Shown piece after piece: positions 1 through 26,092 of a stretch of 26,762 nucleotides of DNA (position 1 is the first letter of the stretch; each line of letters starts with the position of its first letter). The position numbers and the translations under genes are program-made. The notes under the pieces are model-generated. The model saw only the letters and a program-made list of their open reading frames with translations. It did not search any database and was not told the DNA's origin. This DNA comes from a virus, in the IMG/VR virus record IMGVR_UViG_3300045135_000787, positions 1 through 26,762 of that record; one strand, given 5' to 3'.

Positions 1-236
1 CTATTGAGCATACGAGCTTTGTACTCGTTCATAATCGCTGCATCCCCTTTGGGTCTGCCTCGTGCTACTCTATTGCCTCTTTTTTTAGACTCAACTTCAG
101 TCTTCCGAGGTCTTCCTCTTTTACGTTTGACAGGTTTTTCTTCTAAGGAATCATTCTTACTCTGTATAGCTTCAGAGGTTACGTCAGTAGTCTCTGATGT
201 TGATACCTTTTCTGTATGGTTTTCAGTATTCATCAT
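1..236 (-). CDS. Probable terminase small subunit, N-terminal part (cut by window edge)
   Basis: The open frame starts at ATG 236-234 and runs off the left edge after 78 codons. A GAGGA ribosome site lies 4 nt upstream of this ATG; the adjacent ATG (233-231) is an alternative start. The N-terminus is low-complexity (Thr/Ser/Glu rich), followed by two AT-hook-like basic motifs, KRGRPRK (about residues 39-45) and RGRPKGD (59-65). It ends in AAIMNEYKARMLN. From memory, an RPKGDAA..NEYK.RML segment is typical of small terminase subunits in marine podoviruses. That subunit recognises packaging sites on phage DNA and presents them to the large-subunit motor. The AT hooks fit DNA binding. The family call is by recognition only, and most of the protein is outside the window. 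Confidence 0.6.
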   Translation of the reverse strand, partial: MMNTENHTEKVSTSETTDVTSEAIQSKNDSLEEKPVKRKRGRPRKTEVESKKRGNRVARGRPKGDAAIMNEYKARMLN

Positions 237-393: not shown

Positions 394-422
394 ATTATAG
401 CATACTTTTGAGTAAAAGTCAA
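394..422 (-). promoter_or_regulatory. Sigma-70 promoter for the terminase gene
   Basis: Read leftward, TTGACT (422-417), a 17-bp spacer ending in TGC (extended -10), then TATAAT (399-394). The sequence after the -10 box resembles that of the promoters at 26064, 6543, 4192 and 8237. It leaves a leader of about 150 nt before the terminase ATG at 236. Confidence 0.85.
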
Positions 423-708
423 CCCTTTTTAGTATCTTTTTTTAATATAGAGTATCTGCACATTAACTTTATAGGTTCTGCACGGATTCCATGATAGCCT
501 TGATAGCTATATCCTATTGATAACTAAGGCTTTATAGGCTTTATAGCTTGATTGCCTTTTTAGCTTCTTTTTTATTATATTCTTGACTGTTTTAGTAGGT
601 TATTAAGAGACTACCGAGGTCAATAGAGGTCAATTTAGCCCTATTTTGTATCTGGGCAGCTACTACAAAGGCTACAATGACTCTTTAGGGGGCTCGGGGG
701 CTTCGAAG

Positions 709-727
709 CACGTCAGTCACGTGTAAC
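709..727 (+). repeat. 19-bp ACGTG motif, copy 1
   Basis: CACGTCAGTCACGTGTAAC matches the copy at 2692-2710 at 15 of 19 positions. It lies 8 bp upstream of the first 30-bp repeat copy (735-764). Confidence 0.5.
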
Positions 728-734
728 AAAATAG

Positions 735-826
735 GGCTTGACAGGGCTATGAAGTTATGATAGGGCTTGATTGGGCCACTAACGTGCTACAATTAAGGCT
801 TGACAGGGCTATGAAGTTATGATAGG
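735..826 (+). repeat. Exact 30-bp direct repeat, two copies 62 bp apart
   Basis: Positions 735-764 and 797-826 are identical over 30 bp. Each starts GGCTTGACAGGG, contains GCTATGAAG and ends TATGATAGG. Each is preceded by a 19-bp ACGTG motif (709-727 and 772-790), so the real unit is about 55 bp and tandemly duplicated. GCTATGAAG recurs a third time at 989-997. TTGACA (738-743) has no properly spaced -10 box, so I do not call promoters here. Confidence 0.85.
772..790 (+). repeat. 19-bp ACGTG motif, copy 2
   Basis: This weaker copy (14 of 19 matches to 2692-2710) ends in the shared core ACGTGCTAC. It occupies the same position relative to the second 30-bp repeat as copy 1 does to the first. 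Confidence 0.4.
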
Positions 827-976
827 CGATACTACACAGGATCTGAACAGGCTTGATAGGACTTGATAGGACTTGATAGGACTTGATAGGTCTGATTAGT
901 CTAAATAGTTGACAGTGAGGGGCTAAATAGCACCACTCTAAAGGCTTGATAGCCCTTGATAGACCTCTGGTGATTT

Positions 977-1024
977 CGCATTGTGTTAGCTATGAAGCCT
1001 TGATAGGGCTTGATAGACAATGCG
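977..1024. other. Long hairpin-forming inverted repeat
   Basis: Perfect 8-bp arms CGCATTGT (977-984) and ACAATGCG (1017-1024) enclose further paired arms CTAT/ATAG (990-993, 1013-1016) and AAGCC/GGCTT (995-999, 1007-1011). There is a 7-nt loop and a 5-nt bulge at 985-989. Two CTTGATAG copies lie inside. Neither strand has a T tract after it, so it does not look like an intrinsic terminator. It directly abuts the terminator hairpin at 1027-1076. Confidence 0.6.
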
Positions 1025-1034
1025 ATCAGCAACT

Positions 1035-1064
1035 AAAAAGCCCCATCAATTGCTTGATAGGGCT
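1035..1064 (-). terminator. Leftward intrinsic terminator with GCAA loop
   Basis: Read leftward, an 11-bp stem (AGCCCTATCAA with TTGATGGGGCT, one U-G wobble) closes a GCAA tetraloop of GNRA type and is followed by UUUU. Outer arms CAGCAACTA (1027-1035) and TAGTTGCTG (1068-1076) could extend the fold. It lies 30 nt after the stop codon of the 73-aa gene and should end the left-arm operon before the repeat region. Confidence 0.8.
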
Positions 1065-1094
1065 CTCTAGTTGCTGCTAGTGTTATGCTAGGCT

Positions 1095-9407: not shown

Positions 9408-9799
9408 AACCTCCAAAGGGTTATGACAGCTTCTTTGAGTACGATGCACACATCAAATACTTGAAGAACTGTCGTTACCACCCTGAGAAGATTACCTATA
9501 CACAAGTTAAGCAATACGAACCAGACTTTATCTATGTATCGCCAAAGGGCTTCAAAACCTATATAGAGACCAAAGGGCGCTTCAGAGATTCAGCAGAGGC
9601 TCGCAAATACAAAGACATTAGAGACGGTTTAGCCAAGGATGAAGAGATTGTCTTTATATTCCAAAACCCTGCAACACCTTTTCCACACGCTAAGAGGCGT
9701 AAGGATGGTACAAGGATGACGCATGGAGGATGGGCTGAACTAAACAACTTTAGATACTTTACCTTAGAAACTATACCTAACGAATGGAGAACCAAATGA
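9383..9799 (+). CDS. Endonuclease I, Holliday-junction resolvase (T7 gp3 type)
   Basis: The PD-(D/E)xK core is clear: FFEYDAH with E19, YEPDFIY with D48 and YIETKG with E62 and K64. These correspond to the T7 endonuclease I catalytic set (E20, D55, E65, K67). The length of 138 aa compares with 149 in T7. In T7 this dimeric enzyme cuts branched DNA before packaging and helps break down the host chromosome. The AAGGA site and the ATG lie inside the exonuclease gene. Confidence 0.92.
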   Translation: MATAKRKVKPPKGYDSFFEYDAHIKYLKNCRYHPEKITYTQVKQYEPDFIYVSPKGFKTYIETKGRFRDSAEARKYKDIRDGLAKDEEIVFIFQNPATPFPHAKRRKDGTRMTHGGWAELNNFRYFTLETIPNEWRTK

Positions 9800-23134: not shown

Positions 23135-25639
23135 TTATACCAACTTAGCATTAAGTATTTTACGTGATAGTGGCGTATCTTTGTCTTCCAAGTTAATTTG
23201 AAATAGGTCACGTCCCATCAAATCAGCATCAGGTTCTAGACTGCCGAAGGATGTTGTACCTTTAGCAAGTCCTTCAAGATCTCCCATATCAAGACCACTT
23301 AGGTCAATATCAGGTAGATCGCCAATGTTAGTGCCTGACCAGTCTAGTGAGCCTATGTCAACACCTAGACCATTCAGTTCTGGCAGGTTAACCTCTGGCA
23401 GAGTAACATCTACGCCTGACCAATCTAGACTAGGTAGATCAATGTCCATCGCTAAGTCAGGTAGCTCTCCAAGATCAATGTTTAGATCTGGTACTGGAAC
23501 GCCTGAGAAGTCTATAGAGCCTATGTTAAGGTCTAGATCGATCATGTCTGGTAAATTGATGTCTGGGAGGTCTGCGAAGTTAACACCACCAAAGTCAATG
23601 TCAGGGAGATCAAAGTCTAACTCATTAACAATGTAGTCTGGAGCTTCGAAGTCTGGTAGTTCACCCCCTTCTTCAACGTAAGTAACAATACCGTCCACTA
23701 GAGCCTTGTTAGTATCGCCTGTTTGGTCATAGGTGTTAAGAGATTCTACAGATGCCTTACCTAGAGGATTATCTAGACCTAAGTCCTGTCCGTAAACATC
23801 ACCTAGTACGCTAACACGGTCTTCACCTAAGCCAATACGGATAGCTGCTTCTGTTGGCTGTTCGTAGCCTTCAGGAACAATGTCCATAACCTTATCAGCA
23901 TAGGTAGATACTGCAGCTTCTACAAAGTCTTCGCCATTTGCTACCTTAGTAGTAAACTCAATAGCCTTAACAGTCTCTGCAGATGCTCCTACACCTGTAG
24001 TGATCTCTGCAATTGCTTCATCAAGACTAAAGTCCAAATTGTAGTATTTATCAGCAATATCGCTCCAACTAGGTTTAGATGGTGCAGAAGTCGTTGCAGC
24101 TTCTTGCTTAGCATTGATAGCTTCACCGCCTAGCCCAATACCTTGACTTAGTGAAGTAGAGACATCAAAGTCCCCAGACTCAAAAGACTGTTGAGCTTGT
24201 TCAGCGTTAGCAGCAGAGTTGCTAAACATATCCTCTAACTTTGTAAAGGTAGTTTCACCACCGATACGCTGCTCAACCCAACGAGTACCATCACCATCTA
24301 CAGACACTTTATGGTCAACAATAGCCTTATCTGCAACACCAGCAGCACCTAGTAAGGTCTCTGTAGTCATTGCAGTACCAAGTGCAAACACTGGGACACC
24401 TGTTACAGCAAAAGCAGCCATACCAGCAGCGTATCCTATGCCGTAGTTAATGCCTTTGTTTGCTAGATAGTCAACACCAGAAGCTACTAGGTTAGCTACA
24501 GACACCCCTTCGTCTACCTGTATACGCCCTGTTTCTGGGTTTATAACTAGTCTTCGGTCTGTGCGTGATAGTGTTTCACTACTGTTTTCTTGTGCTGCTT
24601 GGTGGGCATTAAGAAGGTCTTGTGTAAATGCAATCTCAGACCTAACACCAGTGCCGTAGTAATCTCCTGCTTCAGATGCAGCCTCATACAACGTACCCAT
24701 AGCCCCTTCATCAAGACTAATCTGTTCACCGTAGTCAACAGTAAGCCCGTCTTCAAAGCCTTTTAGAGTTCCTTCACGTTGATATGGAGCATCTACGTAG
24801 GTGACACCATTAACCACAGAAATATCTGCTGTAGGAGCTGCTGAAGGCATTGCTCCGCCTAGTTCTTGTAGAGCCTCTTCGTTTACAGGATCTATAGAGA
24901 TTGTCTCTACACCTTCTGGGGTTGTGTCGATACCCACAGCAGACTTAACAGAATCAAACAAGCCCGACCAAGTGAATGAGTCATCAGACTTTGACGTTAC
25001 AGAGGGCATATCCTTCTCAGCCTCTGTTGACCAATCATCAACGCCTCTAATGAACTGGTCAACTGTATCGTCTAACCAGTCATCGTTGTAAACAGAACCA
25101 CCAAAGTCTTTGTTAATACCTTCAAACAAAGATGCTGTAGTTGATGTTACGTATTTACTATTGTCTGTATTCTCAATAGCTTGTTTGTACGCATAAGCTA
25201 CATCGTCAGAAGTATAGTAACCTTTAGTGCCAGCGATTTGATTAAGTAGTTGATCATACGTGGCATTGAATGATGTATTAGCTTGCAGTGTGTCAGAGGC
25301 TATCTGAGCCTGTCTAGCTGCTTCAGCTATTTCAGCGTTCTTAGCGTCTCGTGCAGCAATAGAAGTGTGAATAGATCCATCATTGGCTGTATATGTAGTA
25401 GGAGCTGGTTGACCACCAACGTCAGCGCTAGAGCCTCCAGAGCCTACGTAGCCACTGTTGCCATAACTAACACCACCACCGCCTGATTGTCTATTAGCAG
25501 TGTCTTGGGCTATAGCACCTGCAAACTCAGCATCAGAGACTGTAGAGCCTCCTCCACCGCCTCCGCCACCACCTGATGAACCACCACCGCCTAAGTAGCC
25601 TCCAACAGGTGTTAACATTCTTTGTAGTCTGGTTAGCAT
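23135..25639 (-). CDS. Large virion-associated protein with acidic 28-residue repeats (834 aa)
   Basis: I do not recognise a family. The N-terminus has Gly-rich tracts, including nine consecutive Gly near residues 23-31. A hydrophobic, Gly/Ala-rich segment lies at about 395-435 (GIGYAAGMAAFAVTGVPVFA), possibly membrane-active. The C-terminus (about 671-795) is a very acidic repeat region: IDFGGV (681), IDFSGV (709), LDWSGV (738) and LDWSGT (765) recur every 27-29 residues, with LPDI/LPEL sub-repeats between them. The length, the operon position before tail-tube genes and the low complexity suggest a virion or ejection protein. The repeats could form a beta-solenoid or bind calcium. The gene overlaps the acetyltransferase-like gene by 7 nt. 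Confidence 0.6.
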   Translation of the reverse strand: MLTRLQRMLTPVGGYLGGGGSSGGGGGGGGGSTVSDAEFAGAIAQDTANRQSGGGGVSYGNSGYVGSGGSSADVGGQPAPTTYTANDGSIHTSIAARDAKNAEIAEAARQAQIASDTLQANTSFNATYDQLLNQIAGTKGYYTSDDVAYAYKQAIENTDNSKYVTSTTASLFEGINKDFGGSVYNDDWLDDTVDQFIRGVDDWSTEAEKDMPSVTSKSDDSFTWSGLFDSVKSAVGIDTTPEGVETISIDPVNEEALQELGGAMPSAAPTADISVVNGVTYVDAPYQREGTLKGFEDGLTVDYGEQISLDEGAMGTLYEAASEAGDYYGTGVRSEIAFTQDLLNAHQAAQENSSETLSRTDRRLVINPETGRIQVDEGVSVANLVASGVDYLANKGINYGIGYAAGMAAFAVTGVPVFALGTAMTTETLLGAAGVADKAIVDHKVSVDGDGTRWVEQRIGGETTFTKLEDMFSNSAANAEQAQQSFESGDFDVSTSLSQGIGLGGEAINAKQEAATTSAPSKPSWSDIADKYYNLDFSLDEAIAEITTGVGASAETVKAIEFTTKVANGEDFVEAAVSTYADKVMDIVPEGYEQPTEAAIRIGLGEDRVSVLGDVYGQDLGLDNPLGKASVESLNTYDQTGDTNKALVDGIVTYVEEGGELPDFEAPDYIVNELDFDLPDIDFGGVNFADLPDINLPDMIDLDLNIGSIDFSGVPVPDLNIDLGELPDLAMDIDLPSLDWSGVDVTLPEVNLPELNGLGVDIGSLDWSGTNIGDLPDIDLSGLDMGDLEGLAKGTTSFGSLEPDADLMGRDLFQINLEDKDTPLSRKILNAKLV

Positions 25640-26034
25640 AGTTGTTTTTCCAAAGTAATCTGTTTTAGTTTGTATTCAGGTAGAACTCTATGCCACCCTT
25701 TACGACCTTTAACCTCTATAGTCGAACAACCCCACTCTTTAGCTTGTTCCTCTATAGGCTTTATAGTATTATTCCAGCCCTCTGAAGAACTAACATCAGA
25801 AGTCATATACTCAACAATATATGTCTTAGTATTATCTATTCTTGAGTATGTAGCCCCTATGCAAAAAGCAGTTAGATCCATATTGACCCAAAGGTCTGCT
25901 TTGTTATTAACTAAGAGGTTGTATAAATAGTTCGATGTCACCCAGTTGTTTAACATCTTATTGTTTGAGGTTAGAGGTTCAATGAACTCCCAGACCTCAT
26001 CAATGTCTTCTGGGTGTATTCGATGTATGTCCAT
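25633..26034 (-). CDS. GNAT-like acetyltransferase family protein (133 aa)
   Basis: MDIHRIHPEDIDEVWEFIEP, the central strand WVNMDLTAFCIGATYSR, and the C-terminal STIEVKGRKGWHRVLPEYKLKQITLEK read as the beta/alpha order of small phage GNAT-like proteins, in which GR.GW...L..Y.f is recurrent. A clear acetyl-CoA loop (Q/RxxGxG/A) is not visible, so catalytic activity is doubtful. Genes like this are common between capsid and tail genes of marine podoviruses. It is the first gene behind the strong leftward promoter at 26064. Confidence 0.6.
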   Translation of the reverse strand: MDIHRIHPEDIDEVWEFIEPLTSNNKMLNNWVTSNYLYNLLVNNKADLWVNMDLTAFCIGATYSRIDNTKTYIVEYMTSDVSSSEGWNNTIKPIEEQAKEWGCSTIEVKGRKGWHRVLPEYKLKQITLEKQLC

Positions 26035-26063
26035 GTTTGCCTCTTTGTGTTCTATATAGTAAT

Positions 26064-26092
26064 ATTATAGCATACTTTGAGACATTTGTCAA
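26064..26092 (-). promoter_or_regulatory. Consensus leftward promoter inside the structural operon
   Basis: TTGACA (26092-26087), 17-bp spacer ending TGC, TATAAT (26069-26064): both hexamers are perfect. It is nearly the same as the terminase promoter at 394-422, including CTCAAA and GTATGC in the spacer and the sequence after the -10 box. It should drive 26034-16199. Confidence 0.92.

Follow-up and report, generated by a model that had tools for sequence, protein, structure and literature searches.

In phage T7, arrays of a short repeat (the CCTAAAG arrays SRL and SRR) lie inside and flank the direct terminal repeat, and bacterial and plasmid DnaA-box arrays and iterons are likewise built of direct, helically phased repeats. 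In the SPP1 relative SF6, the DNA-binding domain of the small terminase (TerS) has little specificity for repeats, and the boxA repeats are not conserved between SPP1 and SF6 although their TerS proteins are exchangeable, which has been accompanied by the proposal that the TerS ring of these phages presents multiple weak binders one helical turn apart and selects bendable pac DNA (PMC4737164). A recent review describes the recognition of packaging sites by small terminases as unresolved, with criticism of wrapping models for lacking sequence specificity (PMC9611059).

Here, we describe an array of the octamer CTTGATAG in a 26,762-nucleotide stretch of viral DNA (IMG/VR record IMGVR_UViG_3300045135_000787; herein referred to as the window). 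The array occupies part of what is very probably the direct terminal repeat of an uncultivated bacteriophage and extends beyond it. As in T7, short repeats occur inside and flanking a known or predicted terminal repeat of similar size (160 bp in T7, a median of 158 bp in the group, and 269 bp predicted in the window), both in the window and in 93 related lineages. Unlike T7, in which the CCTAAAG array has a period of 13 bp (computed z of 16.9 at lag 13), the group has a period of 10-11 bp, and its unit and its terminase and portal families are different. TCTCAC stands near the left end in both systems (GACTA/TCTCACAGTG in T7, a slash marking the cut or end; TAGACTCTCACAC about 10 nt inside the predicted cut in relatives; the T7 ends are our loci L383 and L384), and a CTATAGGGTCC that precedes the end of T7 by about 45 bp recalls the TATAGGGT at the left boundary of the group; these likenesses at the ends may be coincidence. 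The locus resembles the pac sites of SPP1 and SF6 in lying before terS and spanning its promoter, in having repeats near the cut and in repeats that are not conserved while TerS is similar. However, SPP1 is a headful packager with a single pac cut and a helix-turn-helix (HTH) TerS, whereas our group has two boundary boxes, includes relatives whose contigs carry direct terminal repeats, and encodes a TerS in which AT-hook-like motifs stand in tandem. Exact DnaA boxes are found in about one-fifth of the related lineages, but the array of the window is without a DnaA box, is bounded by predicted terminase-cut boxes and has no recognized initiator gene adjacent to it (its neighbors are terS, a 73-aa open reading frame [ORF], and a GP88-family gene).

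The Array and Its Gene Setting

A sequence-only reading of the window had placed ten exact copies of CTTGATAG, many in 10-bp helical phase, in a gene-free region next to the terminase gene, and each of these points held. All ten copies are present on the plus strand (starting at 499, 852, 862, 872, 882, 945, 955, 999, 1009, and 1053), three runs have a strict 10-bp period (table 1), the gap at 237-1094 (858 bp) contains no credible gene (its small ORFs, of 26-60 aa, are without support) and the adjoining gene is that of TerS. The 38-aa HTH-like protein mentioned in the same reading was not identified among these ORFs. The ten copies in the gap compare with a mean of 0.03 and a maximum of 2 in 3,000 Markov shuffles, which preserve dinucleotide composition only, and no 8-mer of any kind exceeded five copies in 500 shuffles of the gap. 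Over both strands of the whole window, 13 copies were found against 1.7 expected, and the three additional single copies (15686 on the minus strand, 18140, and 18262) look like background. CTTGATAG is the commonest form and the core of a looser decamer, CTNNNNAG, of which 23 instances occur in the 435 bp upstream of the conserved box described below (3.1 expected). Relative to the predicted terminal repeat, four copies of CTTGATAG lie inside (852-889), five on the far side (945-1060) and one on the terS side (499). The copy at 1053 falls inside a terminator-like hairpin and may therefore have another role.

Table 1. Features of the array and its surroundings (positions in the window; PWM, position weight matrix).
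Feature	Position	Strand	Basis
TerS gene, part encoding the first 78 aa, with AT-hook-like motifs KRGRPRK and ARGRPKGD in tandem	3-236	-	L002 overlap and translation; 36-member alignment
Promoter-like site before terS (TTGACT, 17 bp, TATAAT)	394-422	-	Sequence; conserved in L001, same place in many relatives
Single CTTGATAG, terS side of predicted terminal repeat	499-506	+	Sequence; conserved in L001
Right-boundary (putative terminase-cut) box GTAGCTGCCCAGATACAAAATAGGGCTAAATTG; predicted cut 663/662	629-663	-	PWM 35.3 vs shuffled maximum -24
Predicted direct terminal repeat, 269 bp	663-931		Left and right boundary PWMs; 221-295 bp in three relatives
C-tract CCCCCGAGCCCCC, 24 nt from box as in consensus, replacing G-tract	688-700	-	Tract comparison
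Two 36-bp copies (729-764, 791-826; 94% identical) with CTTGACAG and CTATGAAG units, within predicted terminal repeat	729-826	+	Sequence
Four CTTGATAG in strict 10-bp tandem, within predicted terminal repeat	852-889	+	Sequence
Left-boundary motif GTGGT/GCTATTTAGCCCCTCACTG; predicted cut 932/931	913-936	-	PWM 17.6 vs shuffled 95th percentile 5.0, maximum 6.4
CTTGATAG pair, 10-bp period, just beyond predicted left boundary	945-962	+	Sequence
CTTGATAG pair, 10-bp period, beyond predicted left boundary	999-1016	+	Sequence
Terminator-like hairpin with copy 1053-1060	1027-1076		Sequence; conserved in L001

The first gene runs off the end of the window and is assigned to TerS by its position, its sole family match being to the AT-hook. 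A second IMG/VR contig, from the likely source metagenome of the window (L002; 3300045135), overlaps the window exactly over 127 bp and contains the rest of the gene, followed by TerL-like and portal-like frames; the joined TerS comprises 170 aa. In L001, an 83%-identical relative from this metagenome, matches to Pfam and PHROGs identify TerL as well as an SU10/P22-like portal, and the Pfam matches include AT_hook. Both GRP motifs are invariant in an alignment of 36 TerS members. The AlphaFold model of TerS has a helical core (residues 66-124) with low confidence elsewhere (mean pLDDT of 66) and found no fold match in the PDB; a minor-groove role for the AT-hooks is neither supported nor excluded by this model.

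The replication genes are oriented opposite to TerS, TerL, and the portal, the coding strand changing at this site. Twenty-six base pairs that include the -10 region of the terS promoter (383-408) recur with 93% identity at 26052-26078, just before the minus-strand gene at 25633-26034, suggesting that the minus-strand (structural) genes have a promoter type in common. The 73-aa minus-strand ORF (1095-1316), which is flanked by the terminator hairpin and a GP88-family gene, has no family match and is absent from L001, and is therefore a recent gain or loss. The GP88-family gene (1454-2140; PF17338, phrog_1617) is situated close to the genome end, both in the window and in many of the relatives. 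No T7-type RNA polymerase gene was recognized in the window, nor were any Rfam families or tRNAs found there.

Conserved Boxes and Predicted Genome Ends

In nearly all TerS relatives, the repeats are separated from the terS promoter by a noncoding box, G/TACCTNCTCAGAYACAAAAWAGRG. Scanning with the box pattern returned 106 stretches. Almost every one has a G-tract roughly 30-40 nt upstream and, on contigs that extend far enough, a GRP-motif gene a few hundred nucleotides downstream. The resulting right-boundary profile (CGGGGGRGGG, a variable spacer, and then G-T-A-C-C-T-N-C-T-CAGAYACAAAAWAGRG) has box and tract at fixed spacing, with a variable spacer sequence, in 84-89 aligned sequences, and the box PWM identified 236 loci; the box precedes the tandem-AT-hook TerS gene in more than 200 loci of uncultivated phages. 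The G-tract is present in 91 of 94 sequences; in the window and in L001, a C-tract takes its place, equally spaced from the box. A further motif, AGGGT/CCTACATAGACNCACACAC, built from contig starts of the kind described below, defines the left boundary in 85 of 93 nonredundant lineages, giving box-to-motif repeat lengths of 104-360 bp, and a GT/ACCTRCNYAGAC-like core is common to the two boundary motifs. Genomes of this group are thus predicted to start with CCTACNTAGAC-type sequences and to end at G/TACC boxes, with a possible error of one or two bases in the predicted cut positions. For the window, which is an incomplete contig, the two boundary PWMs together predict a terminal repeat in its own genome.

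The location of the genome end is well supported by comparison with relatives. Three near-complete relatives have direct terminal repeats that run from contig base 1 through the last contig base (G001, 40,151 bp, repeat of 295 bp, 99% identity; G004, 38,605 bp, repeat of 257 bp, 100% identity; G002, 36,338 bp, repeat of 221 bp, 100% identity); their right ends fall within 1-2 bases of one point in the box, and both G001 and G004 begin with CCTACACTGG. Among 23 contig left ends no more than 480 bp from the box, four coincide to the base with the predicted left cut and eight are within 8 nt of it, one of the four exact starts being nonindependent because the left motif was seeded partly with the start of G001. 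One contig (L344) starts at the cut but wraps about 2.1 kb past the junction and therefore supports the left end only. Most contig ends lie away from the predicted cuts, and none of the 374 other contig ends stops at the right box, so the position of the right end comes from the three near-complete records. A genome-end or packaging site comparable with the repeat arrays of T7 had been among the options of the sequence-only reading, and it is supported by the direct terminal repeats of relatives at this place and by an array that lies in and beside the predicted repeat.

The group appears to be without a cultured member in INPHARED, since none of its phages matched the array DNA, TerS or the combination of G-tract and box (one of these searches gave short chance matches only). 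A box scan of cellular genome contigs returned 27 stretches; four among those with the top scores were inspected and have no adjacent TerS or TerL, the rest were low-scoring, and thus none indicates a host. Our literature search returned nothing relevant on DnaA boxes in terminal repeats or on AT-hook small terminases.

Turnover of the Unit and Conservation of the Phase

From the sequence-only reading, the same 10-mer array would be expected before the terminase gene of related phages. This is mostly not the case: among the first 80 relatives, multiple copies of the octamer occur at the site in just two, L001 and the more distant L051, and the remainder keep the place and the phase but not the unit. 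The units found before terS include CTATCAAG (L001), CTGTGTAG (L003), CTGTCAAG (L079), TGCCTATG (L020), and, in L062-L064, the DnaA box in reverse complement (TGTGGATAA), and further lineages have GCCAAC or Fur-like sites. Fur-box-like palindromes (e.g., TGATAATGATTCTCA) occur in the terminal-repeat region of 13 of the 93 lineages (e.g., L148, L043, L031, and L097). Several lineages (L031, L137, L148, and others) have a second short array, of GGTAACAC repeats, several hundred bases upstream of the box and outside the predicted repeat.

The helical phasing of the window extends across the 93 lineages, which have little sequence in common; their nonredundancy was judged by shared 12-mers, and some dependence through common descent therefore remains. 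Over the 300 bp preceding the box, trinucleotide self-matches are enriched at lags of 10-12 (1.9-fold), 21-23 (1.5-fold), and 32-34 (1.2-fold) and depleted at the off-phase lags of 14-17 and 25-28, with individually significant periodicity (P < 0.05) in 50 of the 93 lineages. The lag signal is 2.0-fold inside the predicted repeat and 1.55-fold in the 160 bp outside it, is absent from TerL coding DNA and persists (1.63-fold) when lineages with DnaA boxes are removed; TA and WW steps have a 10.5-bp period. That the repeat sequence changes fast while the one-turn spacing is kept suggests that the end is recognized by shape or by aligned proteins, and not by a fixed sequence.

The strongest case for a different function comes from the DnaA box, TTATCCACA, which is more than 100-fold denser at the site (1.40/kb, one orientation) than elsewhere (0.011/kb). 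Nineteen of the 93 lineages have it at the site, where one orientation predominates (65 vs. 14) and spacings of 11, 12, 22, or 33 bp are frequent, and on a 67-row TerL tree the trait has 15 positives and 13 changes, indicating that DnaA boxes were gained or lost many times. The array could accordingly represent a replication origin positioned within the terminal repeat, with iteron-like sites to which an initiator of the phage or of its host (DnaA in some relatives, another protein in the window) would bind; the DnaA boxes make such a role, whether sole or additional, the main rival to a packaging site. We nonetheless regard an origin as unlikely: about four-fifths of the lineages have no DnaA box at the site, including the window (in which a single near match, TTTTCCACA, stands at 9679), lineages with and without DnaA boxes alike retain the box-bounded terminal repeat and, to our knowledge, no known initiator site matches CTATCAAG.

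A more general possibility is that the repeat is loaded with sites for host proteins (DnaA, Fur-like, and others) that would protect or regulate the incoming end or be titrated there. The repeated switching of units between close relatives, the DnaA boxes and a palindrome, TGA[TG]AATNATT[AC]TCA, with 16 copies at the site and none elsewhere in the same loci would all fit such a platform. However, the palindrome is named Fur-like from its resemblance to a consensus, and no host protein is known for the CTATCAAG, CTGTGTAG, or GCCAAC units, making this explanation distinctly improbable.

Packaging sites described so far typically contain short sequences in several copies, and the array lies both beside terS and at the genome end, as would a sequence-specific TerS site akin to the cosB R sites or the P1 pac hexamers. 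The lineage comparison speaks against this, since the unit does not track TerS: proteins that are 94-98% identical stand beside unrelated units (e.g., five DnaA boxes in L307 and CCATGCCAA in L309), and in L001, whose TerS is close to that of the window, the tandem cluster is shifted relative to the cut and lies outside the predicted repeat. We consequently rejected sequence-specific recognition of CTTGATAG by TerS as the main reading and consider it very unlikely. Selectively neutral slippage in noncoding DNA, although compatible with fast turnover and with units that differ between close relatives, gives no reason why spacings in many lineages should be in excess at 10-12, 22, and 33 bp and in deficit at 14-17 and 25-28 bp, would not yield exact DnaA boxes and is almost certainly not the explanation.

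A Candidate Packaging Site Possibly Read by Shape

We hypothesize (with a probability of roughly 0.6) that the array belongs to the genome-end (packaging) site in a T7-type podophage with direct terminal repeats, in which phased units bend or wrap the DNA and thereby place the cut boxes. The two boxes with the shared core would mark the terminase cuts in the concatemer, and the fast-changing short units between and beside them (CTATCAAG and CTNNNNAG in the window), one helical turn apart, would allow bending or wrapping of the DNA along a single face. The most likely partner is TerS in oligomeric form, around or along which the DNA would lie; the tandem AT-hooks of TerS could touch the minor groove with little demand on sequence. 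DNA bent in this way would position the cut boxes for TerL, and the complex may serve replication besides packaging. The sequence information would then reside in the two boundary boxes and the tract, with the array providing bendable or one-faced DNA; TerS would be the protein that is wrapped, and the phasing would be needed for packaging.

This packaging reading is supported by the adjacency of TerS, TerL, and the portal to the array. Counting against it are the tract of the window, which is C-rich and not G-rich, the identification of physical ends with the contig ends of a few relatives, and the presence of CTTGATAG on both sides of the predicted cut, together with the displaced tandem cluster of L001. 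Furthermore, exact DnaA boxes in about 20% of lineages suggest sequence-specific binding there, and shape alone is therefore not the whole story. A broader view, which we put forward tentatively as the less probable part of our interpretation, is that a very large group of uncultivated phages has a bipartite end, in which fixed cut boxes surround a hypervariable, phased array that is read by shape and often captures host proteins such as DnaA, with one segment serving both packaging and replication.

More than 90 lineages with closely similar TerS proteins, in which the phase is kept, the sequence is not and the specificity would lie in the flanking boxes, constitute a natural experiment on packaging-site recognition. 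The boundary motifs also allow the physical genome ends of hundreds of contigs from uncultivated phages to be predicted. A repeated gain of DnaA boxes in terminal repeats would be surprising and would link packaging ends with replication.
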